Shown one piece after another: positions 7,146-19,459 of a DNA stretch of 64,000 nt. The stretch lies in NCBI RefSeq assembly GCF_013408685.1, contig NZ_JACBZY010000001.1, forward strand, positions 2,418,001 to 2,482,000, in the 5' to 3' direction. Position numbers and translations under genes: made by a program. Each line of letters begins with the position of its first letter. The first letter of the stretch is position 1. The stretch is from Schumannella luteola. Its GTDB lineage: Bacteria; Actinomycetota; Actinomycetes; Actinomycetales; Microbacteriaceae. The notes under the pieces are model-generated. The model made no database searches and had not been told where the DNA came from. It saw only the letters and a list, made by a program, of their open reading frames with translations.

Positions 7146-8855
7146 ATGGCCAACGGCGAACTGAAGTTGCCGATCACCGGCGATAACAAGGACTTCCTGA
7201 AGGCCGTGAAGGGCGCCGGTGACGGTGCCGAGGACCTGGCCGACAGCCTCTCCGACCTCGGTCGCTCCGGGTCTCGCGACCTGGACCGGGTGACGGACTC
7301 GCTCGATGACGTGAGCGACCACGCCAACATCCTCAGTGATGACTGGGACAAGGTGGGCCGCGATGCAAAGGCGTCGGGCCGTCAGCAGGAAACGGCGCTG
7401 GAGAAGGTCGAGCGCGAGGCCCGCGAGACCCAGCAGGCCGCCGAGAAGATCGGTGACGGCTTCGACACCGCGCGCCGGGAGTCGGAGCGCTTCTCGCGGC
7501 AGAGCGGCGACGACCTCAGCAAGACCAAGCAGACCGCCGCCGAGTTCAAGAGCGAGGTGTCGCAGAACATCGGCGAGACCTTCTCGTCGTTCCGCGGTGA
7601 CCTGGCCGACCTGCCGCAGATCGCGCAGGACACCTTCGGCGGTCTCGCCACGAGCATCGGTCCGCTCCTCGGTCCCGCGGGCATCATCGCATCCGTGGCC
7701 GGTGCCGCGGGCCTGGGCCTCATCGCGGGTGCGATGGAGAACAACGGCGAGCAGACCGCGGCCTTCAAGGAGAAGGTCGCAGACCTCACGGACGCCCTGA
7801 TCGAGGCGGGCGACGCCGGGCTCAGCATCGACTACGTGGCGGGCGCTCTCCGCGACCTCGCCACCGCTACGGGCGAGAACGAAGACTCCCTCGGTGACCT
7901 GTACGAGTCGTACCGGAAGTCGGGCCTTAGCGGCGTCACGTCGTTCAAGGATGTCGCGAAGGCCGTCGTCGGCGCGGGTGGCGACTACGGCAAGTTGATC
8001 GAGAAGCAGGAGACCTACCTCCGCTCGCTCCGCGACGAGAACGGCATCGCCTCCGCGGGTGGCTACGCGGTCAAGCAGGCCAACTCCGACAAGATCGACG
8101 CCACTCAGAAGATCATCGACAAGTTGAAGGAACAGCAGGGCGTGGCTGAAGAGGCCGCGCTCGCTGAGCAGGCCTACGCCGCCTCCGGAGCCGAAGCGCT
8201 CCAGCAGAAGGCGGACATTCAGGCCAGCGCCTCGGACGCCATCGCCTCGGGCTACGACGAGGTTCGCCAGGCCGCCGCCGACGCCGCGACCGCCGAGGAT
8301 GGCGCGTTCGACGTGCAGAAGTACCTGAGCGCCGTGGAGGCGCAGAAGGTCGCTGTCGGCGCATTCAAGACCAACCTCGCCTCGATGAAGTTGACCCCCG
8401 AGGAGTGGGAGAACTTCTTCGCTCTGGATGACACCGTTCAGCAGAACCTGGCCTCGGCCTTCGCTACCGGCTCCGACGACCTGAAGGCGCAGATCGCCTC
8501 CTCGCTCGATGACGCGGGTAGCAAGGGCGGGTCTCAGGCCGCGGTGAAGTTCGACTCGTCTTTCAAGCCGAAGGACAAGGACGTGAAGGTCAACGTCACC
8601 ACGCCAAGCGCCGCGACCGCCAGCGCTGACCTCGACAAGGTGGCGAAGAAGCGCGAAGCCGAAATCGAGGCGAAGAGCACCGGGAAGGCGAAGGCCAATG
8701 CTGACCTCGACGCGGTGGCCGCCGACCGCACGGCCAAGATCAAGGCCTCCGTGGACCTGAGTGCGGCTCAGACCGCCATCGACACCTTCGTGAACAAGAA
8801 GCGCACCATCACGGTCACCGCGAAGGCCGTTGACCAGTACGGGAGGCAGTTGTGA
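7146..8855 (+). CDS. Phage tape measure protein
   Basis: This 569-residue protein starts at ATG 7146 with no gap after the previous stop. The N-terminal half is coiled-coil rich (Glu/Asp/Ser/Arg heptads), followed by a hydrophobic Gly/Ala stretch ('LGPAGIIASVAGAAGLGLIA') typical of the part of tape measures that enters the host membrane. Tape measures set tail length; at this size the tail would be short for a siphovirus. The C-terminus has Ala/Lys/Asp repeats ('ADLDKVAKKREAEIEAK', 'ANADLDAVAADRTAKIKA'). It overlaps the next gene by 4 nt. Confidence 0.85.
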   Translation: MANGELKLPITGDNKDFLKAVKGAGDGAEDLADSLSDLGRSGSRDLDRVTDSLDDVSDHANILSDDWDKVGRDAKASGRQQETALEKVEREARETQQAAEKIGDGFDTARRESERFSRQSGDDLSKTKQTAAEFKSEVSQNIGETFSSFRGDLADLPQIAQDTFGGLATSIGPLLGPAGIIASVAGAAGLGLIAGAMENNGEQTAAFKEKVADLTDALIEAGDAGLSIDYVAGALRDLATATGENEDSLGDLYESYRKSGLSGVTSFKDVAKAVVGAGGDYGKLIEKQETYLRSLRDENGIASAGGYAVKQANSDKIDATQKIIDKLKEQQGVAEEAALAEQAYAASGAEALQQKADIQASASDAIASGYDEVRQAAADAATAEDGAFDVQKYLSAVEAQKVAVGAFKTNLASMKLTPEEWENFFALDDTVQQNLASAFATGSDDLKAQIASSLDDAGSKGGSQAAVKFDSSFKPKDKDVKVNVTTPSAATASADLDKVAKKREAEIEAKSTGKAKANADLDAVAADRTAKIKASVDLSAAQTAIDTFVNKKRTITVTAKAVDQYGRQL

Positions 8856-9217
8856 CGACCAGCGTCTCGGACGGCGTGAGTCAGGCGCTCTCCTTCGACC
8901 TCACGACGGCCTACTCCGTGGACCGTCCCAGCCGGATCATCGTGCACGACATCATCGGTTCGCCCGACCCTGCCGTCACGCTCCAGCCCGCGGGGCTCCG
9001 CACGGGCCGGTGGCAGGCGATTATCGGCACCGACGACGCCCTCGCCACCAAGTGGGACCTTCTCCTCAACTCGGGCCGGGTGCTCGTGCTCGCGGACTCC
9101 GACAAGCCGCGCATCGGCATGGTGTTCGTCGTCACCGACGCCTCCACGCTGTCGCTCGACACGGACGACGGCACGGTCTGGCTCATCGAGTTCGGCTTCC
9201 AGGAGGTGGCTCGATGA
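8852..9217 (+). CDS. Phage distal tail / baseplate protein (uncertain)
   Basis: A 121-residue protein starts at GTG inside the tape measure stop (GTGA). It is beta-rich ('RPSRIIVHDIIGSPDPAVTL', 'LVLADSDKPRIGMVFVVTDA') and lies between tape measure and baseplate hub, where a distal tail or tail-tip adaptor belongs. The next gene overlaps its stop (ATGA). I recognise no specific family; the role is inferred from order. Confidence 0.6.
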   Translation: MTTSVSDGVSQALSFDLTTAYSVDRPSRIIVHDIIGSPDPAVTLQPAGLRTGRWQAIIGTDDALATKWDLLLNSGRVLVLADSDKPRIGMVFVVTDASTLSLDTDDGTVWLIEFGFQEVAR

Positions 9218-11715
9218 CATCGGCCATCGTGAAGCCCACCATCACCGCGAAGGTGCTCGGGCTCAACTGGACCAAGGCCGCATGGGAGGAGCCGGTCACC
9301 GTCGAGGCGGGCCACTGGACCAAGCAGGCCCCGGTGCCGGAGTACGTCCTCGACGTGCCCGCGCACTGGGAGGTCGTGACTCCCGCATACACGGAGCACG
9401 TGCCCGCAATGCGAACCGACTTCAACGGTCTGGAGACGGCGAGCGACTGGCCTCGGTTCACGTCGGCTTCGTACTTCTACCCGCCGTACGACGAGAACGG
9501 CGACCCGACCGGGGCCGACCCGCAGGTCACCTACCCGACTGCCGCCGCCTACGAGGGGAAGCGCGGCGCGCTCATCGACTTCGACAAGGGCGGCGGCGCG
9601 GCGCTCCAGTTCCGCATGAAGACCGACCGAGGGAACCGCGTCTATCGGTTCTCGGCTTGGTTGCTCAACATGTCGGGTGCGGCGACCGTGTTCGTGGAGC
9701 CGGACTACAACGACATCGTGCTCGCGCCCGGCGTGTGGACGCAGGTCTCCTACGAGCGCTCGGTCGAGGACATCGAATACAACTACTTTCAGGTCAACAT
9801 CGAGGCCGCGGGTGACGCCCTGATCGCGGTCGATGCGATCCGAGTCGATGCCGTCGCGTACGACGTGGAGCACGAGGAAGTGCGCGTGTGGGTGCCCGAC
9901 AAGGGCCACACGATCTACCACCAGCGCAACGACATCTGGACGCCGCCGACCGTGCTCCCGGGCGCGAAGCACGCCGCCAGCGCTCAGACCGAAGTGGTGC
10001 TGAAGGTGAAGGACGGCTCGGTCCGCCTCGACAAGTCGCGGGCTCCCTACGGCGAGGTCAGCCTCACCGTGGCTCAGCCCGAGCAGGCGGCGCTCGACGT
10101 GCTCGACCCGCGCGTCAACCGCGGGAAGCGCCTCCAACTGACGATCACGCAGGACTGGGACGCGCCCAACGACTTCACGCAGACCCGCACCTTCGACCTT
10201 CTGTTCCACGCCCGCACGACCAACCCGGACACGGGCGAACTCGTGCTCATCGCGCGGACCGACGAGGCCCTTCTCATCGACCAGATGATCGGCGGGACCT
10301 CCATCGACATGACGTATGCGACGGCGACGGACCTCCGCGCGCTCGTGGGCGCGGTCCTGGCGACGTTCTCCGCGACGCTGGAGGCGGGCACGCTCACCTC
10401 CGACATCACGCGGACGGCCAATGCCACCAACCTCATCGCGAACCCTGCCGTGCGCGGCGGCCCGGACTCGTGGAGCGCGAACTCCAGCAACGCCACCGTG
10501 ACCCGCCAGACCTCCGGCATCGGAACCTCACCCGTGCCCGGCATCACAACCTTCGTGCGCGCCACCTTCACCGGAGCGAGCGCCACCGGGCTCTACTACG
10601 TGGGCGACTCGCAGACCTCGGGCACCAACTACCTCACCAACGTCCAGCCGGGAAAGGTCTACCGAGCCACCGTCTGGGTGCGCGCGAGCGTGGCGAAGGT
10701 CATGAGCCTCCGTTTCCAGTTGCGGACCGGGAACAACGGCGCGCTCTTGCCGACTGAGGTCGGGCCGACCGTCAACCTGACCGCGAACACCTGGACGAAG
10801 ATCACGCACACCTTCCAGGTGCCCGCGACGGCCACCGTGGTCGGCACCTACGTCTATCAGAACGGCGGCTCCAACTGGGCCTCCGGGCAGACCTTCGACG
10901 CCACCGCCTGGATGTTCACCGAGGCCACGGGCGTCTACGACGATCAGTATTTCGACGGCACCACCGGCCTCGACACGACGCACTACGTGCTCGCCTGGAC
11001 CGGCACGCCGGACGGAAGCACCAGCACCCGCACGCGTCTCGACAACCGCTCCGCTGACAGCCTCCTCCGCAAGCCCGGCACGAAGGTCTGGGACTGGCTC
11101 AACGCCATCGTGCAGGCCGCGGGCCTCCGGCTCTTCTGCGACGACAAGCGCAAGTGGCGGCTCGTGAACAACGCCTATGCCGTCGATGGTGTGATCCGCA
11201 TGGCGCAGGCCGTCAACCTCACCGACGCAAGCGACACCGTGGACCTCGGAGCGACCGACCCGGGGCCGCAGGGCATCGGCGCTGTGCCCGGCTACGCGGA
11301 CCACGTGGTCGTGCGCTACTCGTGGATCGACCGAGCCACCGGCCAGCAGATGGAGCAGTACGACAGCGCAGGCACTCAGCCGGGCCTAGGAGCCCTCATC
11401 GAGGTCGATGCGCCCTTCCCTGGCTCCGGGCTCGCCGCCGCCGCTCTCGCGCGCGCACAGGGCCGCGGACGGGTGCTCGACCTCGCCAGCCTCTCGGACC
11501 TCAACACGACGCCCGGGAACGACCTCATCGCGACGATGCCGGGTATCCCGGCGCAGGTCGGCAAGGTCGCATCCGTGGAGTTCGACCTCACCGACAGCAC
11601 GATGCGCGTCGGCTCCGAGGGACTGATCGACACCCCGCCCAACGCCTGGCTCTTCGCGCTCGGCACCTGGAGCGCCGCAACCGGTTCGTGGGCGCAGGCC
11701 ACGGGCACCAACTGA
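9214..11715 (+). CDS. Phage minor tail protein / baseplate hub with carbohydrate-binding-like inserts
   Basis: This 833-residue protein starts at the ATG overlapping the upstream stop. Two beta-sandwich regions, roughly residues 60-215 and 405-585, look like carbohydrate-binding modules inserted in a tail-hub framework (Gly/Asn/Trp-rich, e.g. 'TWTKITHTFQVPATATVVGT', 'ATAWMFTEATGVYDDQYFDG'). The C-terminal third ('VWDWLNAIVQAAGLRLFC', 'LDLASLSDLNTTPGNDLIA') is hub-like. It probably docks the phage onto wall polysaccharide of the host. Module limits are judged by eye. Confidence 0.75.
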   Translation: MTSAIVKPTITAKVLGLNWTKAAWEEPVTVEAGHWTKQAPVPEYVLDVPAHWEVVTPAYTEHVPAMRTDFNGLETASDWPRFTSASYFYPPYDENGDPTGADPQVTYPTAAAYEGKRGALIDFDKGGGAALQFRMKTDRGNRVYRFSAWLLNMSGAATVFVEPDYNDIVLAPGVWTQVSYERSVEDIEYNYFQVNIEAAGDALIAVDAIRVDAVAYDVEHEEVRVWVPDKGHTIYHQRNDIWTPPTVLPGAKHAASAQTEVVLKVKDGSVRLDKSRAPYGEVSLTVAQPEQAALDVLDPRVNRGKRLQLTITQDWDAPNDFTQTRTFDLLFHARTTNPDTGELVLIARTDEALLIDQMIGGTSIDMTYATATDLRALVGAVLATFSATLEAGTLTSDITRTANATNLIANPAVRGGPDSWSANSSNATVTRQTSGIGTSPVPGITTFVRATFTGASATGLYYVGDSQTSGTNYLTNVQPGKVYRATVWVRASVAKVMSLRFQLRTGNNGALLPTEVGPTVNLTANTWTKITHTFQVPATATVVGTYVYQNGGSNWASGQTFDATAWMFTEATGVYDDQYFDGTTGLDTTHYVLAWTGTPDGSTSTRTRLDNRSADSLLRKPGTKVWDWLNAIVQAAGLRLFCDDKRKWRLVNNAYAVDGVIRMAQAVNLTDASDTVDLGATDPGPQGIGAVPGYADHVVVRYSWIDRATGQQMEQYDSAGTQPGLGALIEVDAPFPGSGLAAAALARAQGRGRVLDLASLSDLNTTPGNDLIATMPGIPAQVGKVASVEFDLTDSTMRVGSEGLIDTPPNAWLFALGTWSAATGSWAQATGTN

Positions 11716-12729: not shown

Positions 12730-12922
12730 CAGGGCGTCGCCTGACCGTCACTCCGTGAGGTGTTCTCGACGTGCCCGTATCGTGCCCGATTTCTAGGCAC
12801 GTTCTGCCATCATGGGGGAGCGACTTCCCTTTGATTTCAGGAATCCTGCCCGAAGTTCACGATTCTGGCACGATCACCCCCGAACGGGATTTCGCGCCTC
12901 CGGCCGATGTTTGGATGGTCCG
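12730..12922. other. Prophage-chromosome junction region, candidate attachment site
   Basis: This 193-bp stretch without a gene contains a direct repeat CGTGCCCG (12770-12777 and 12781-12788). It also has a 6-bp stem with a 9-nt loop formed by CGTGCC (12781-12786) and GGCACG (12796-12801). Structure of this kind could be a weak terminator for the tail operon or an integrase core. No T-run follows the stem. Composition is visibly less GC-rich around 12826-12870. An attachment role cannot be shown without the other prophage end. Confidence 0.35.
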
Positions 12923-14227
12923 GTGCCGCTTCTGAACGACATCCGCTCCGCTCGTCGCGTGCTGCGCAACATCCTCCGTTCGCGTGCCACGCGGCGCGAG
13001 ATCGCGCAGCGCTCGGGCGAGTTCCCCCGGCCGCGGCCGAACTCGATCGACGTGGCCGTGTACTTCGCCGACACCCGCACGAACCTGTACCAGATCCGCC
13101 AGTGGTACGCGCCGCTCAAGGAGCTCGCCGCGACCCATCCGGTCGCGATCATCACCCGCAGCCCTGGCGCCGCCCTCACGATCAACGAGGAGTCGGGGCT
13201 GCCGGTGCAGTACCTGCGCAAGGTGACCGAGCTCGAGTCGTTCGTCGACGAGCAGCAGATCAAGGTCGTGCTCTACGTCAACCAGAACACGAAGAACTTC
13301 CAGATGTTCCGCTACAGCCGCATGTGGCACACGTTCATCAACCACGGCGAGTCGGACAAGATGTACATGACGACGAACCAGTTCAAGGCCTATGACTACG
13401 CCCTCGTCGCCGGTCCCGCCGCGATCCAGCGCCTCTCGCGCAAGCTGTGGGACTTCGACGTCGACAAGAAGGCGATCGAGATCGGCCGCCCGCAGGCTGA
13501 TCACTTCGCTGGCAGCACCCCGTACCCGCACGACGACCGCATCGTCGTGCTCTACGCGCCCACCTGGGAGGGCGACCGCCCGTCGGCGCTCTACGGCTCG
13601 GTCGCCTCGCACGGCGTCGCGCTGGCGGATGCGGTGCTCGCCTCGCCCAGCCACCGCCTGATCTACCGCCCGCATCCCCGCAGCGGCGTGCTCGACCCGG
13701 CCTATAAGGCCGCGAACGAGAGGATCATCGCGGCGATCGCGGCGGCGAATCAGAAGGATGCGGCCGCCCACCACGTCTTCGACGACGGCCCTGAGATGGG
13801 CTGGCAGCTCGCCGCCGCCGACGTCGCGCTCACCGACGTCTCGGCGATGGTCTACGACCGCCTCGCGACGGGCAAGCCGATCATCGTCACCCGCCCGCTC
13901 GCCCCCGAGGCGGACGTCGACGAGAACGGCTACCTCGGCTCGGCCGAATGGCTGTACGCCGACCGGGCCGGCGACGTGCTGGGGGATGTGGATCGCGTGC
14001 TGCGCGACGCCGAAGCCCAGGAGACGCTCGCGCACTGGTCGGCGCACCACTTCGGCGACACGACCCCGGGGTCGGCGACCCGCCGCTTCCATGCGGCCAT
14101 CAACCACCTCGTCGCCGAGTGGGAGCGCCACGCGGCGCTGCACGCGGCCGACGGTCCCGACCGCGACAGCGGCGACCCCCTCGACGACGAGGACGACGAG
14201 GAAGGCGAGCCCGCGACGGGCGACTGA
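12923..14227 (+). CDS. CDP-glycerol:glycerophosphate glycerophosphotransferase family protein (TagB/TagF-like)
   Basis: This 434-residue enzyme class transfers glycerol- or ribitol-phosphate units during teichoic acid or related wall-polymer synthesis at the inner membrane face. Family hallmarks are 'NHGESDK', 'LYAPTWEGDRP', 'IYRPHPRSG' and 'DVALTDVSAMVYDRLATGKP'. The GTG start is chosen because the 37 residues before it look non-coding and TTGGAT lies 6 nt upstream. The last 30 residues are an acidic tail. It belongs with the TagG-TagH exporter and nucleotidyltransferase at 20.9-23.3 kb, from which a restriction block now separates it. Polymer identity is not determinable. Confidence 0.82.
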   Translation: MPLLNDIRSARRVLRNILRSRATRREIAQRSGEFPRPRPNSIDVAVYFADTRTNLYQIRQWYAPLKELAATHPVAIITRSPGAALTINEESGLPVQYLRKVTELESFVDEQQIKVVLYVNQNTKNFQMFRYSRMWHTFINHGESDKMYMTTNQFKAYDYALVAGPAAIQRLSRKLWDFDVDKKAIEIGRPQADHFAGSTPYPHDDRIVVLYAPTWEGDRPSALYGSVASHGVALADAVLASPSHRLIYRPHPRSGVLDPAYKAANERIIAAIAAANQKDAAAHHVFDDGPEMGWQLAAADVALTDVSAMVYDRLATGKPIIVTRPLAPEADVDENGYLGSAEWLYADRAGDVLGDVDRVLRDAEAQETLAHWSAHHFGDTTPGSATRRFHAAINHLVAEWERHAALHAADGPDRDSGDPLDDEDDEEGEPATGD

Positions 14228-14281
14228 CCCCGCGACTCCGCTCGGCGGAACGCACCGCGCGGGTGATCGGACTCCGTAGAC

Positions 14282-14342
14282 GGTGATCGGTCGCTAGCTG
14301 TCGCCATCCGTGTCGGAGAGCGACAGTTGGCGACCGATCACC
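14282..14342. terminator. Long hairpin between convergent genes, probable bidirectional terminator
   Basis: Left arm 14282-14304 pairs with right arm 14320-14342 over 23 positions: 13 perfect base pairs (GGTGATCGGTCGC with its complement), two U.G wobbles, the rest Watson-Crick. The loop is 15 nt. TTTT follows at 14343-14346 on the + strand. It lies between the stops of the glycerophosphotransferase (14227) and the restriction enzyme (14349). The stem is much longer than a normal intrinsic terminator. Confidence 0.7.
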
Positions 14343-14348
14343 TTTTGA

Positions 14349-17300
14349 TCACGTCGTGGACGCCGCGGCGGGGTCGTCGGGGATGTTCAGCGGCGGCAGG
14401 GAGTCGACCAGGTCGACGGTGCGCAGGCTCACGGTCACGATGCGCTGGATGAGCTCGAGGATGTAGCGCGGGTTCCCGTGCTCCTCGCCCCACTTGTTGG
14501 CGTCGTTGACGATGCCGGACGCCTTGTCGGTCTTCACCCGGTACCGCTCGAGGATCCAGTCGAGCGCCGACCGCGAGCCGAGCTTGTACTCCTGCGCCTT
14601 CTCGGGGATGCCGGTGAGCGTCACGTGCTCGTTGTAGATCACGGTCGTCTTGTCGGCGCCGCGCTTGCCGCCGTACTTCATCTGCGTCACGAGCAGGTGC
14701 TCGTCATCGGCCGGGACGCCGTCCAGCTCGTAGAGCTCGGCCTCCTCGTAGCCGATGTGCAGCTCCATGAGCTCCTTGCCGGCGTTCGCGAAGGACCAGA
14801 AGTCGCCGACCTTCGGGATGCGCGGCAGCGTCCGCTTGAGATCGGCGGCGAAGCGGGTGCGGTACTCGGGGGAGTGCAGCACGCCGTACACGAAGTGGAA
14901 GATGTCGTCCTTCGTGATCGCTGCGTCGTAGTCGCGCCGGTACTCGGCGAGGATCTCGTCGGTCACGTTGTCGATCGGATCGCTCGCGCCGAAGACATCG
15001 AGTTCGCCCTCCGCAGGTTCGGGGGTCCGAAAACGGACAACCGCCTGAGCCGAGTCCAGCGTGTGAAGATCGATCGGAAGATCGGTGGCGACGCAGCAGA
15101 AGTCGAAATGCGAACTCGGTGAGGTGACCACGATCGCGCGGTTCGAATCCGTCATCTGACGGGTGAGGCGGCTCGGGCTCTCGTTCAGTGTCCGGTCGAC
15201 AAAGAGCAATTCGCGGTTGAAAGGACGGTAGAGAACTTCACGGAGCGCCTTTCGCGTCGGGGATTGCAGCCTGACCGCCCCATCAGCAGCCCGGACCAGC
15301 TTGCGACTCCAGCTGATGCGCTTCGGATCGCGCTCGAGTTCCAGCGCGCCGGCTCTCGTTCGCTCTTCGACCTGGCGGTTGTACTCGGAGATCAGCCGTC
15401 CGACCTGCGCGAGCACGTCAACGGCCGACTTGGAGTAAACCCATGCGTCTCTGTTGGTTGCGGTGCCCATTCCGTATTGGCCGATCAGACCATCGGGGTC
15501 GGATCGAGTCTCGCCCATTGCGCTCATCGAGCTGAACTGGTCAGTGCGCTGATCCAGCCAGTCGCCCGATTGGTTCGGGACGATAGTCGCAGTCGCGAGA
15601 GAACGAATACTCGCATTCCTGAGCTCTGCCAGCTTCTCTCCGACGCTCGCGTTATCGACGCTCTGGCCGTAATGAACTGATCCTCGCTCGCCTCCGTGCG
15701 AAACGAGTACGGTGACCGCCACCCCGACTCGAACTCCGAAGACATTGCCGCCGGCTCCTGGGCCGGGTTCTCGGGTGGCTCCTCGCAGATTGAAGACGTA
15801 GATCTCGTCGAACTCGTCCACGAGCGCCTTCCGGAACCCGTCGGCAGAGTTCCCGGACAGGAATCCGCTGTTCGTCACGAACGCAACGATCCCGGGTTTC
15901 GCGACCCCATCGCTCGCCCACCGGAATGCCGAAACATACGCGTCGTACATCGACTTCGAGAGCGTCGCGGCAGAGCCAGACACGTATGTCTCGTCGATCC
16001 GTGATCTCAAGGTCGGATAGCGAAGGTTCTGGTTGTCCTCATTGGCTGAGGTCTGTCCGACGGCCCACGGCGGGTTGCCGAGAACAATTGACATCGGTGT
16101 CGACTGCTGCTTGACGACGACCTCGTTGTTCTGCTCGAACACGCCCTCGGCATCCAGCTGGTCGCCGTCTTCCGTGTTCTGGAACGTGTCGGTCAGGGCG
16201 ATGTGCGGGAAGGCGACGTAGTTGCCGCCCATCCGCGAGCGGTACGCCTGCTCCAGGTTCGCGGCGGCGACGTAGTAGGCGAGCAGATTGATCTCGTTCG
16301 CCCACAGCTCGTTGCGGAACTTGTGGGGGAGTGCGTGATCGGGCATCAGCTCCTTGTCCAGGATCAGCTGCGCGAGGAACGTGCCCGTCCCGGTGAAGGG
16401 GTCGAGGATGTGCACGCCCTCGTCGGCGAGACCCTTGCCGAAGTGCTCGCGCGAGAGCTCATCCACGCTGCGCAGGATGAAGTCGACGATCTCGTTGGGT
16501 GTGTAGACGATGCCGAGCCGCTCGGAGGCCTTCTTCATCGCCAGGCGGAAGAAGCGCTCGTAGAGCTGCTTGAGGAAGCGCTGCTTGCCCTGCGCGTCGG
16601 TGATCTGGCCCACGCTGCGGCGCACGCCGGCGTAGAAGTCGGCGAGCTCCTTCGTCTCCGAGTCGACGTTGGTGTCGGCGAGGGCGTCGAGCATCCGCCC
16701 CATCGCTGCGGCGACGGGGTTGTTGTCGCGGAAGCTGAAGTCGTCGAAGAGGATCTCGAGTACCGGCTCGGTGATGATGTGCTGCGCGAGCATGTCGAGC
16801 GCGTCGCCCTCGGTGATGCTCTCGTTGAGGTTGGCGCGCAGCCCCTTCACGAAACGGTCGAACTCGCGGCGGATGCCAGCCTTCGTGTCGAGCAGCTGGC
16901 GGATGCGGGCGCTCTGCCGCGTCGCGATCTCCGCCACGTTGACGGCCCAGTTCTCCCAGTACTCGCGCACGCCGACCTTGCGCACGAGCTTCGCGTAGAT
17001 CGCGTCGTTCCACTCCTCGCCGAGCGGCGTGAAGTCGAGCCGCTGCTGCGTCGAGCTCCCCGTGCTCTCGTCGCTGTCGCGGTTGGGCGCGAAGTCCTTC
17101 ATCGCGATGACCTGCACCTGGTCGCTCTTCGTGCCGCCGGGGTTCAGTCGGATGGCTTCGACCGTCGCCGCGAAGCGGTCGTCGTGGGCGCGCAGCGCCT
17201 GCAGCACCTGCCACACGACGCGGAAGTTGTCGTTGTCGTCGAGTGCCTCCTCGGGCGTCGACCCTGCGGGGATCGCGATCGGCAGGATGACGTAGCCGTA

Positions 17301-19037
17301 GTCTTTGCCCTCGGCCTTGCGCATGACGCGACCGACGCTCTGCACGACATCGATGTGACTGTTGCGCGGATTGAGGAAGATGACCGCGTCGAGCGCCGGC
17401 ACATCCACGCCCTCGCTGAGGCAGCGCGCGTTCGTGAGGATGCGCGTCTCGTTCTTGGTGATCGCGCCCTTCAACCAGTCGAGATGCTGTGTGCGCTCGA
17501 GGATGTTCATCGAGCCGTCGACGTGCTGCGCCTGCATCACGAGGTCAGCGGCGCGTCGAGGGACCGCCGTCGACAGCGCGGCGTTGCCGTCGAGCATCTG
17601 CTGCACCTGCTGCGACGCCTTGATGTTCGTCGCGAACGCGACCGCGCGACGCATCGGAGCCCGTGACGCCTCGTCGAGTCCCTCGACCGCGGTCTTCGAG
17701 AGCGCCTTGTAGATGCCGGCGACGCGCGCGGCGTCGGGGATGTTGAGTTCGCTCCCGGCGAGAGCGAACTGCTTCTGGAAGCTCTCGTTGACGGCGTCCT
17801 CGCTGACCGCGAGCACCAGCACCTTGTAGTCGCTGAGCAGGTTCTGCTCGACGGCGGTGCCGAAGCCCAGCTTGTGGAAGACCGGGCCGAAGACCTCCAC
17901 CCGGTCCATGCTCGCGACCTCGACCGAAGCCTCATCGGCCTTGCGCTTCGCGGACTCGCCGTAGAGCTTCGGCGTGGCGGTCATGTAGAGGCGCTTGTCG
18001 GCGCGCACGAAGGTGTTGTCGTGCACGCGCACGAAGTCGGAGCGCTTCTCCTCGATCTCGATGACGCCCGCCGTGCGGTGCGCCTCGTCGCAGAGCACGA
18101 GGTCGAAGTCGACGAGCCCGGCCTCCTGAGCGGCGTGAACGACGCCGATCGACTGGTAGGTCGAGAAGAACACGGTCATCGTCTCGGGGCTCGTCGGAGT
18201 CGCGAGCGCGGCGATGAGCTGCTCGGCGTTCGTCGTGGCGCCGATCTCGAGGTCGCGCAGCCGCAGGTCCTCCGCGTTGCGGCCGACCTGGTTGTCGGAG
18301 CAGATCGCGAAGCTGCGGATCGGCAGCTCGGCTTCCTGCGTCCACTCCGTCAGCGTCTGGGCGAGCAGCGCGATCGACGGCACGAGGAACAGCACCGACC
18401 CGCCGGAGCCCACCACGCGCTCGGCGATGCGCAGACCGGTCATCGTCTTGCCGGTGCCGCAGGCCATGATCAGCTGCCCGCGATCGCTCTCGCCGAACCC
18501 GGTGATGACGTCGCCGAGCGCTTTCACCTGGTGGTCGCGCAGCTGCTTCCGCTCGCGGAGCCCGACGCGGTCGGGATCGCTGAATCGGTAGGTCGACCAG
18601 TCGACGCGGGAATCGTCGAGCGTGCTGAGCCCGATGCGCTGCACCGGGATCTGCTGCGCCTCGAGTGCGTCTTCGGCGTGCTTCGACCACTTCGCGACCG
18701 TGCTGACGATCAGGCGGCGCGTGAACGGCGTCTTGCCGGAGGCGGTGAAGAACGAATCGATGTCGCCCTTCTGCAGGTAGTAGCTCTCGGCGTAGAACTT
18801 GCACTGGATCGCCCAGACCTCGCCCGACGGCGAGACGGCGACGAGATCGATCCCGGTGTCGACCTTGCCGTCGCGTCCGGGCCAGTCGTTCCAGAGCCAG
18901 ACCGTCTCGAGCTGCGCGCTCCAGTAGGGGTCCTCTTCGAGGAACTTCTTGACCAGGCGCTCGAAGTAGAGGCCCTTGGTCCTGGTGTCGGGCGCGATCT
19001 GCGCGTACTCGGCCAACAGCTCACGGATCGTGGTCAC
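14349..19037 (-). CDS. Type ISP single-polypeptide restriction-modification enzyme
   Basis: This 1562-residue protein joins nuclease, translocase, methylase and target recognition, like LlaGI and LlaBIII (about 1570 residues). Domains in order: Mrr-type nuclease at 1-150 (Asp64 in 'TGIDLVA', Gln78 and Lys80 in 'AIQCK'); SF2 helicase at 160-590 (Walker A 'ACGTGKT' 192-198, 'DEAH' 317-320, 'MTATP' 352-356, motif VI 'QSVGRVMR' 566-573); coupler; N6-adenine methylase with motif I 'DPFTGTGTF' 879-887 and 'NPPW' 988-991; C-terminal specificity region. It protects DNA by methylating one strand of its site and cuts unmodified DNA after head-on translocation. Start is GTG 19037 behind AGGGGG. All key motifs are intact, so it is probably active. 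Composition is less GC-rich around 15050-16150, in the end of the methylase and the recognition part. Confidence 0.93.
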   Translation of the reverse strand: MTTIRELLAEYAQIAPDTRTKGLYFERLVKKFLEEDPYWSAQLETVWLWNDWPGRDGKVDTGIDLVAVSPSGEVWAIQCKFYAESYYLQKGDIDSFFTASGKTPFTRRLIVSTVAKWSKHAEDALEAQQIPVQRIGLSTLDDSRVDWSTYRFSDPDRVGLRERKQLRDHQVKALGDVITGFGESDRGQLIMACGTGKTMTGLRIAERVVGSGGSVLFLVPSIALLAQTLTEWTQEAELPIRSFAICSDNQVGRNAEDLRLRDLEIGATTNAEQLIAALATPTSPETMTVFFSTYQSIGVVHAAQEAGLVDFDLVLCDEAHRTAGVIEIEEKRSDFVRVHDNTFVRADKRLYMTATPKLYGESAKRKADEASVEVASMDRVEVFGPVFHKLGFGTAVEQNLLSDYKVLVLAVSEDAVNESFQKQFALAGSELNIPDAARVAGIYKALSKTAVEGLDEASRAPMRRAVAFATNIKASQQVQQMLDGNAALSTAVPRRAADLVMQAQHVDGSMNILERTQHLDWLKGAITKNETRILTNARCLSEGVDVPALDAVIFLNPRNSHIDVVQSVGRVMRKAEGKDYGYVILPIAIPAGSTPEEALDDNDNFRVVWQVLQALRAHDDRFAATVEAIRLNPGGTKSDQVQVIAMKDFAPNRDSDESTGSSTQQRLDFTPLGEEWNDAIYAKLVRKVGVREYWENWAVNVAEIATRQSARIRQLLDTKAGIRREFDRFVKGLRANLNESITEGDALDMLAQHIITEPVLEILFDDFSFRDNNPVAAAMGRMLDALADTNVDSETKELADFYAGVRRSVGQITDAQGKQRFLKQLYERFFRLAMKKASERLGIVYTPNEIVDFILRSVDELSREHFGKGLADEGVHILDPFTGTGTFLAQLILDKELMPDHALPHKFRNELWANEINLLAYYVAAANLEQAYRSRMGGNYVAFPHIALTDTFQNTEDGDQLDAEGVFEQNNEVVVKQQSTPMSIVLGNPPWAVGQTSANEDNQNLRYPTLRSRIDETYVSGSAATLSKSMYDAYVSAFRWASDGVAKPGIVAFVTNSGFLSGNSADGFRKALVDEFDEIYVFNLRGATREPGPGAGGNVFGVRVGVAVTVLVSHGGERGSVHYGQSVDNASVGEKLAELRNASIRSLATATIVPNQSGDWLDQRTDQFSSMSAMGETRSDPDGLIGQYGMGTATNRDAWVYSKSAVDVLAQVGRLISEYNRQVEERTRAGALELERDPKRISWSRKLVRAADGAVRLQSPTRKALREVLYRPFNRELLFVDRTLNESPSRLTRQMTDSNRAIVVTSPSSHFDFCCVATDLPIDLHTLDSAQAVVRFRTPEPAEGELDVFGASDPIDNVTDEILAEYRRDYDAAITKDDIFHFVYGVLHSPEYRTRFAADLKRTLPRIPKVGDFWSFANAGKELMELHIGYEEAELYELDGVPADDEHLLVTQMKYGGKRGADKTTVIYNEHVTLTGIPEKAQEYKLGSRSALDWILERYRVKTDKASGIVNDANKWGEEHGNPRYILELIQRIVTVSLRTVDLVDSLPPLNIPDDPAAASTT

Positions 19038-19068
19038 GCTCGTTCCCCCTGCGACGGAGGCGGGTCGG

Positions 19069-19081
19069 GTCTCGATGAGAC
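19069..19081 (-). other. Small palindrome in restriction enzyme leader
   Basis: GTCTC-GAT-GAGAC (19069-19081) lies in the predicted 5' untranslated leader of the restriction gene, about 30 nt before its start codon. It could form a small hairpin or bind a regulator. This is an observation only. Confidence 0.3.
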
Positions 19082-19090
19082 ATGCTCCGT

Positions 19091-19114
19091 GCGTGATGCA
19101 TTAAAGCATCACGC
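19091..19114. promoter_or_regulatory. Operator palindrome in the divergent XRE / restriction enzyme promoter region
   Basis: Perfect inverted repeat GCGTGATGC (19091-19099) and GCATCACGC (19106-19114), separated by ATTAAA. On the minus strand the spacer reads TTTAAT, a good -10 box for the restriction gene, giving a leader of about 55 nt with ribosome site AGGGGG. A protein bound to both arms would cover that -10. The likely binder is the XRE protein encoded divergently at 19160, in the manner of a restriction controller protein. Confidence 0.6.
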
Positions 19115-19147
19115 GTTCTAGATCTCGTCTCCTGTGCTGGCGGTCGA

Positions 19148-19153
19148 TAGGCA
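19148..19153 (+). promoter_or_regulatory. -10-like element of XRE gene (TAGGCA)
   Basis: TAGGCA ends 6 nt before the ATG at 19160, so the XRE gene may be transcribed without a leader. The last base departs from the usual T, so it is a weak match. Confidence 0.4.
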
Positions 19154-19159
19154 TGACGC

Positions 19160-19459
19160 ATGCCCACCGGATCCGCTGCCGCGCGCCTGCTCGGCGAGCG
19201 CATCCGGATCGAGCGGATCCGGGTCGGCGTGACTCAGATGGAGCTCGCGAATCTCGCCGGACTGAACGTCGCGAACTACGGGCGGATCGAGCGCGGAATC
19301 GGCAATCCGAACCTCGACACGTTGGTGCGAGTCGCCCACGTTCTGGGAGTCGAAGCATCCACGCTGATCGCCGGGATCACGGCAGAGCACCTGCCGAAGA
19401 AGAACGCTCCGTACTCCGCAGCCGATTTCGTCGCCGAGCGCGGTCGCCGCCGCGGCTGA
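19160..19459 (+). CDS. XRE-family HTH regulator, candidate controller of the restriction system
   Basis: This 99-residue protein carries a Cro/C1-type helix-turn-helix at about residues 12-68 ('TQMELANLAGLNVANYGRIE' contains the recognition helix). It has no other domain and a short basic tail ('AERGRRRG'). It is divergent from the Type ISP enzyme with a 122-bp gap holding a perfect 9+6+9 palindrome. Size and layout match controller (C) proteins that time restriction after entry into a new host. Binding to that palindrome is inferred, not shown. Confidence 0.85.
   Translation: MPTGSAAARLLGERIRIERIRVGVTQMELANLAGLNVANYGRIERGIGNPNLDTLVRVAHVLGVEASTLIAGITAEHLPKKNAPYSAADFVAERGRRRG

Follow-up and report, generated by a model that had tools for sequence, protein, structure and literature searches.

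A C-protein-like XRE regulator and its palindromic site beside several kinds of restriction-modification system in Microbacteriaceae suggest one shared switch for interchangeable defences

Genes and signals at the locus

The window, that is, the whole 64,000-nt stretch of the Schumannella luteola chromosome analysed here, contains a Type ISP restriction-modification (RM) gene and a small XRE regulator gene, whose starts are divergent and separated by 122 nt. The features of the locus are listed below.

12812 to 14227, plus strand: left flank, a Glyphos_transf gene common to relatives with other cassettes or with none
14198 to 19087, minus strand: exchangeable cassette; homology to the L062 locus of genome G013 breaks off at 19088 and picks up again at 14197, within the flank gene
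14349 to 19037, minus strand: Type ISP RM gene, 1562 aa, GTG start, SD-like AGGGGGAA
19091 to 19114, no strand: perfect 9-6-9 inverted repeat GCGTGATGC-ATTAAA-GCATCACGC, the putative XRE operator
19094 to 19111, no strand: 18-bp operator core TGATGCATTAAAGCATCA, 11 nt from the TCT[G/C]G box; approximately TGAGGYATWWARCAYSA at many other loci
19100 to 19105, minus strand: TTTAAT, candidate -10 of the ISP gene, matching TATAAT at five of six positions (position 2 is not A)
19123 to 19127, plus strand: TCTCG box, probably part of the -35 region of the XRE promoter; TCTGG at most other loci
19148 to 19154, plus strand: TAGGCAT, conserved element resembling a -10 for the XRE gene; the ATG follows after 5 nt, which suggests a leaderless start
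19150 to 19164, no strand: second short inverted repeat GGCATG-ACG-CATGCC, read from the sequence, covering the XRE -10-like element and start codon
19160 to 19459, plus strand: XRE (HTH_3) C-protein-like regulator gene, 99 aa
19461 to 23344, minus strand: right flank, conserved cell-wall-polymer-like genes (106 aa, 313 aa, ABC-2 permease, NTP transferase)

The ISP reading frame has zero internal stops and encodes in a single chain the Pfam domains Mrr_cat_2, ResIII, Helicase_C, ISP_coupler, N6_Mtase and Type_ISP_C, in that order, which is the Type ISP arrangement of Mrr nuclease, SF2 helicase, coupler, N6 methyltransferase and ISP recognition domain. A pattern search of the protein found the catalytic motifs DEAH, TATP, QSVGRVMR, DPFTGTG, NPPW and D-x-QCK; the Walker-A pattern gave none, and Walker A was read by eye in the translation as the variant ACGTGKT. 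The protein aligns to LlaBIII (4xqk) over 6-1552 and to LlaGI (5ffj) over 155-1552. With homology to these Type ISP enzymes across the full length and an identical domain order, the window enzyme is by its sequence of LlaGI/LlaBIII type, with ATP-dependent translocation and, at an asymmetric site, cleavage and methylation as predicted activities; it differs from them in that its gene is chromosomal and adjoins the XRE module. The preliminary description of this DNA had assigned all LlaGI/LlaBIII-type motifs to the enzyme, had called the XRE gene divergent and had read a perfect arm-N6-arm repeat enclosing TTTAAT between the two genes, and our results agree on all three points: domains, motifs and structure-sequence matches extend over the full length of the enzyme, the two genes lie on opposite strands, and the repeat encloses the hexamer on the minus strand.

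The XRE protein matches HTH_3 (E=9.6e-11) and, in PADLOC, Control_protein (8.6e-8) and marginally better HTH_VI (5.6e-8). The best solved sequence relatives of its profile are C.AhdI (3e-13) and C.BclI (2e-12). The predicted fold (pLDDT 92.8) superposes on C.AhdI at 0.7 Å over 62 columns, the C-terminal helix (87-98) falling outside the matched region; ranked by fold, DdrO stands first, C.AhdI second and SinR third, with similar scores. By sequence profile and predicted fold, XRE is thus C-protein-like.

When the 122 nt between the genes were mononucleotide-shuffled 20000 times, a perfect repeat with arms of at least 9 and a loop of at most 8 appeared in 55 of the shuffled sequences, a rare chance event over so short a length; across the whole 64 kb there are 11 repeats of this kind, including two that overlap. 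The 18-bp core has no second site within 3 mismatches in the 3.75-Mb genome, and a regulon elsewhere in this genome was rejected on that account. The operator centre lies 57.5 bp upstream of the XRE start codon, which is probably also the transcript start because the -10-like element is so close; a site near -57 is in an activator-like position. The second repeat is a possible second site, for autorepression of XRE.

XRE loci, their operator and their neighbours

An ISP gene was found in 26 of the 398 genomes of the family sample (E<=1e-100), and XRE lay on its 5' side in three of these 26 (the window's own genome, G094 and G295), a count in which G138 is represented by the C-terminal half only, its 5' side unseen, and G376 by a flank of 655 nt. 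G310 carries an XRE homologue on the 3' side of ISP, and in G260 both genes are present about 115 kb apart. The ISP gene of G106 (L075) is broken into two neighbouring ORFs of 521 and 1055 aa, and in G225 (L008) a different XRE-like ORF stands 5' of the ISP gene and codirectional with it. XRE homologues (E<=1e-8) occur in 168 of the 398 family genomes; in an order sample of 297 genomes the XRE profile matches 13 at E<=1e-15, five of them from other families and with weaker scores. ISP matches were found in 852 plasmid records, and the eight plasmid ISP neighbourhoods examined among these contained zero annotated genes of the XRE kind, one Rhodococcus plasmid having instead a helix-turn-helix gene beside a RES-domain gene. 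Carriage of XRE on plasmids or phages was rejected, since the plasmid and phage collections gave no match to XRE at E 1e-5.

For comparison between loci we assembled 148 distinct XRE proteins from the family-genome matches listed, the best 80 of 151 matches of a scan of named genomes, and fetched stretches; the set is not exhaustive. In the first contig scan of the named genomes the single ISP protein as query gave no match, and the XRE alignment gave matches. Upstream of most XRE genes stands a constant promoter, consisting of TCTGG, about 20 nt, and TAGnCATGA, with the start codon within a few bases; the window has the variant box TCTCG. Recognition-helix residues that might co-vary with TCTCG or TCTGG were considered and the idea dropped, because L171 combines TCTCG with the common helix sequence. 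A near-palindrome of 18 bp stands 11 nt from the TCT[G/C]G box. In a scan of the 107 box-bearing loci among a first set of 117, palindromy of 18-mers peaked at this spacing with a mean of 3.62 of 9 pairs, compared with 1.67 to 2.92 at the other spacings between 0 and 39, and at least 6 of 9 pairs were found in 21 of the 107 loci at spacing 11 and in at most 7 at any other. Many individual operators are weakly palindromic, and at L073 and L219 the operator is poor (1 of 9 pairs) despite the RM gene. Operator and promoter are also present at loci without ISP and at loci without any divergent gene, for which reason an ISP-specific palindrome was rejected; on this sequence comparison, the palindrome belongs to XRE rather than to ISP.

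RM genes were sought by tblastn, to a distance of 3.5 kb in both directions from each of the 148 XREs, with reference proteins from 5'-side neighbours in the same XRE set (8 donor loci), so that other RM kinds or sides could be missed and the 5' side was favoured. With Mod references trimmed, the 3' matches of L068, L132 and L134, which were due to references starting too early and overlapping an antisense XRE, vanished and all 28 5' matches stayed. On this basis an RM gene lies 5' of XRE at 28 of 148 loci, divergent in 28 of 28, and at 20 of 140 when the donor loci are left out. RM genes 3' of XRE were found at two loci, L123 (Klugiella xanthotipulae) and L247, both with convergent, Type III-like genes. 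The 28 loci, classified by Pfam for the proteins of 18 (at L219 Res was tested) and by tblastn for the other 10, comprise 15 Type III or Mod-like systems; four with an EcoRI-like methylase and a GmrSD/HNH protein (L208, L213, L239, L243); four ISP systems (the window, L073, L074, L171); three Type I systems (L066, L067, L238); one enzyme spread over two ORFs of 895 and 184 aa (L062), which we infer to be IIG-like from its methyltransferase and Type_ISP_C domains; and one locus (L233) where a ResIII protein rather than a methyltransferase is nearest to XRE. The methyltransferase gene comes first at the remaining 27. XRE and its operator thus stand divergently beside at least five kinds of RM system (ISP, IIG-like, I, III and EcoRI-like II), with ISP at 4 of the 148 distinct loci. 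Aurantimicrobium minutum MWH-Mo2 has two XRE loci 43 kb apart (L208 and L210), one with an EcoRI-like Type II system and the other with a Type III Mod gene. No RM gene was found on the 5' side at 120 of 148 loci, which implies that XRE has a role without RM.

The other neighbours are often genes of wall-polymer kind. At least two members of a set comprising the 106-aa gene, the 313-aa gene, an ABC-2 permease, an NTP transferase and an ABC ATPase lie near XRE at 94 of 148 loci, and at many of these wall loci a Glyphos_transf gene lies on the other side of XRE; it points straight at XRE in 22 RM-less loci, and in others a different gene occupies that place. The RM systems lie between the Glyphos_transf gene and XRE or at other chromosomal places: 16 of the 28 RM loci are at the wall locus and 12 were not recognised as such (L074 stops at a contig end). 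In all, 54 XRE loci were not recognised as wall loci, some of which stop at contig ends, and one non-wall locus adjoins a polyphosphate kinase gene. Near the wall-polymer genes of the window, 8830-11715 encodes a 961-aa protein with a carbohydrate-binding-domain match that is weak and below the cut-off. At L103, L132 and L134 two or three related XRE genes stand in tandem, near a gene that, from its protein start, we take to be glmM-like. At L099, L109, L121 and L131, XRE paralogues with the TCTGG promoter adjoin polyphosphate kinase, HipA and, going by the protein starts, presumably uvrB/uvrA-like genes.

Exchange of RM cassettes beside the XRE gene

Two pairs of loci give the clearest view of how the RM genes are joined to this module. 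Between the window and L062, homology covers XRE with its operator (-72 to +176 relative to the XRE start) and also extends over the left-flank gene; the cassettes lying between these are unrelated, ISP in one and IIG-like in the other. Likewise, L208 and L212 have XREs that are 95% identical and share XRE, the operator (to -75/-78) and the far flanks, with an EcoRI-like cassette in one and a Type III cassette in the other. In both pairs homology breaks at the outer edge of the operator. The Type III locus L078 and its RM-less relatives L077 and L090 have common sequence up to -80/-78, whereas the ISP locus L171 and its RM-less relative L093 have common sequence from -28 only, a break inside the XRE promoter.

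The gene trees disagree. In the ISP tree the window enzyme is sister to that of Lacisediminihabitans changchengi (L171), with which no sharing was detectable in the operator region, and in the XRE tree, which was built on few columns and leaves many forks unresolved, the window XRE forms a clade (support 92) with L062, with L066 and L067, which are both Type I, and with L110. L110 (G129) is the sole RM-less member of this five-member clade; its XRE lacks the first ~20 codons, the promoter and the operator, and other sequence occupies the slot. The ISP tree requires at least three changes on starred branches for the slot-borne ISPs. Against the socket reading proposed below, RM-bearing loci cluster on the XRE tree (13 changes compared with 26.1 when shuffled), the starred branches force only three changes of RM state, and an independent-pairs test found just two pairs and had no power. 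Taken together, the locus pairs and the conflicting gene trees indicate that RM cassettes have been exchanged in one slot beside the XRE-operator module.

Proposed control of the cassettes and competing explanations

The operators at RM loci are distinguished by an AT-rich core. The number of A/T in the central 6 bp averages 5.24 at 25 RM loci and 3.53 at 104 others (p=4e-7), counts that leave out box-less loci (L074, L229 and L231 with RM, and 16 without). RM presence is confounded with GC content; the difference is found at GC >=0.62 (5.27 at 15 RM loci vs 3.48 at 102 others, p=1e-5) and not at GC <0.62, where 10 RM loci stand against two others. At 21 loci with other divergent genes the mean is 3.38 (p=2e-5 vs RM loci), so that the AT-rich core is not due to divergence as such, and with one RM locus per clade (18 loci) the difference has p=2e-6, both locus lists being hand-chosen. 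Palindromy is also higher at RM than at non-RM loci, although it tells them apart less sharply (4.64 vs 3.51, p=0.015), and against the other divergent loci the rise is not clear (p=0.08). At 17 loci with RM starts placed by hand, the operator lies 25-72 nt from the RM start, and the best -10-like hexamer was better in the operator core in nine, equal in seven and worse in one. These comparisons support the operator core as the -10 of the RM promoter. In the window, the preliminary assignment of TTTAAT as the -10 of the ISP gene is accordingly plausible in so far as AT-rich cores go with RM loci, and is weakened by the hexamer itself, which is imperfect at position 2, where A is usual, and by the -35, no good one being found ahead of it.

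The best account, which we consider somewhat more probable than not, is that XRE and its operator form a resident "socket" which provides, and also controls, the promoter for RM cassettes that can replace one another, a reading that starts from the observed anatomy, fixed spacing, divergence, cassette exchange and AT-rich core at RM loci. On this account, Microbacteriaceae chromosomes would have a resident regulatory module made up of the XRE gene and the palindrome and related to restriction C proteins. A dimer of XRE most likely binds the palindrome, where an activator would sit relative to the probably leaderless XRE start, and would when bound also cover the -10 of the RM operon standing divergently opposite; one operator would thus couple the level of the regulator to RM transcription. 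DNA binding, the promoter positions and the sign of regulation are parts of this scheme that we infer, and in its simplest form XRE would repress the RM promoter and regulate its own gene. The RM genes would form an interchangeable cassette, ISP in the window and IIG-like, Type I, Type III or EcoRI-like Type II elsewhere, joined to the module at or near the outer edge of the operator, 25-72 nt before the first RM start.

The strongest competitor, which we nevertheless regard as unlikely, is that XRE is a stand-alone autoregulated gene, and that RM systems with promoters of their own simply insert on its 5' side because the site is permissive. The retention of XRE without 5' RM at 120 of 148 loci would be expected on this account, as would operators and promoters without any divergent gene; the single wall-polymer locus that holds 94 of the 148 XRE loci could be a recombination hotspot, and the break between L171 and L093 falls inside the XRE promoter. 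Mere permissiveness accounts poorly, however, for 28 of 28 divergent RM genes on the 5' side against two RM loci on the 3' side, or for the 12 RM loci not recognised as wall loci (L074 at a contig end). Only 25-72 nt separate operator and RM start at the 17 loci where this was placed, the core there having the better or equal hexamer in all except one, and AT-rich cores accompany RM and not other divergent genes.

It is very improbable that XRE controls the neighbouring wall-polymer genes instead of RM: the presence of at least two wall-locus genes near 94 of 148 XRE loci speaks for such a role, and against it stand the 54 loci not recognised as wall loci (some at contig ends), such as the neighbour of polyphosphate kinase, and the sole near-perfect site in the window's genome, which is upstream of XRE itself. 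Least credible of all, with almost no chance of being right, is the dedicated Type ISP controller of the preliminary description, in which XRE and ISP would be one co-inherited unit: the divergent pair does recur at four loci (the window, G094, G295 and Lacisediminihabitans), but ISP relatives largely lack XRE and palindrome while XRE occurs alone (XRE 5' of ISP in 3 of 26 ISP genomes, homologues in 168 of 398 genomes), the eight annotated plasmid ISP neighbourhoods hold no such gene and XRE is unmatched in the plasmid collection, the ISP and XRE histories conflict, and the same module stands beside Types I, II, IIG-like and III. Judged from sequence, then, XRE is not an ISP part.

As a resident regulator of RM cassettes, XRE is best compared with the C proteins of Type II systems (C.AhdI, C.BclI, C.PvuII, C.Csp231I), which are likewise small XRE-fold regulators and to which it is nearest by sequence profile and second nearest by fold. 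Both have their own operator upstream of their promoter, at fixed spacing in the case of XRE, whose operator is recognised by its conservation, and autoregulation of XRE is likely. XRE departs from the C-protein class in two usual features. In Type II systems the C gene typically precedes the restriction gene and is transcribed together with it, whereas XRE is divergent from the RM operon, whose first gene contains the methyltransferase at 27 of 28 loci; and C proteins are constantly linked to RM, whereas XRE has RM at 28 of 148 loci and is linked to several RM classes. XRE differs further in its 99 aa with an additional C-terminal helix and in its operator, approximately TGAGGYAT..RTRCCTCA, rather than the C-box with its AGTC core (PMC5282649).

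Other regulators share parts of this arrangement. HsdC of Mollicutes is like XRE a C-protein homologue found with Type I besides Type II systems, but it occurs in hsd operons, adjacent to Type II methylases or as a fusion with them, and has mostly direct-repeat sites; cassette exchange beside a resident gene is not described in the passages on it (PMC5282649). RptR is reported to be a small repressor tied to RM systems in many genomes, which targets its own and the hsdM promoter, and differs from XRE in its four-helix fold, 6-bp TAGCTA sites, position as first gene of the island and Type I association (PMC12255303). The BrxR/WYL regulators are one family beside diverse defence systems (48% of homologues) with inverted-repeat sites, but unlike XRE they are multi-domain WYL proteins (PMC9122601). 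The nearest known logic to the XRE module is, in a review, a C protein that by repressing the methyltransferase promoter frees an overlapping divergent promoter (PMC12707154). According to the same review, surprisingly little is known about how transcription of Type I systems is regulated, and it describes C proteins mainly for Type II (PMC12707154); in the abstracts and excerpts of the literature we found no description of an XRE-type RM module or of a Type ISP controller.

The occurrence of XRE and its site beside several RM types suggests one shared switch for interchangeable defences. In its fullest form, which we advance tentatively and as rather less than an even prospect, this would be a "restriction socket" in the chromosomes of Microbacteriaceae: the palindromic operator of a resident C-protein-like regulator would also serve as promoter for a methyltransferase-first RM cassette set against it, and Types I, II, IIG-like, III and ISP would be exchanged under one standing circuit that could limit expression on arrival. 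If this is true, the question of what controls an incoming cassette could be put to a direct test using a single small protein and a single operator, and a standing regulator and operator for five RM kinds would explain the safe exchange of restriction specificity.
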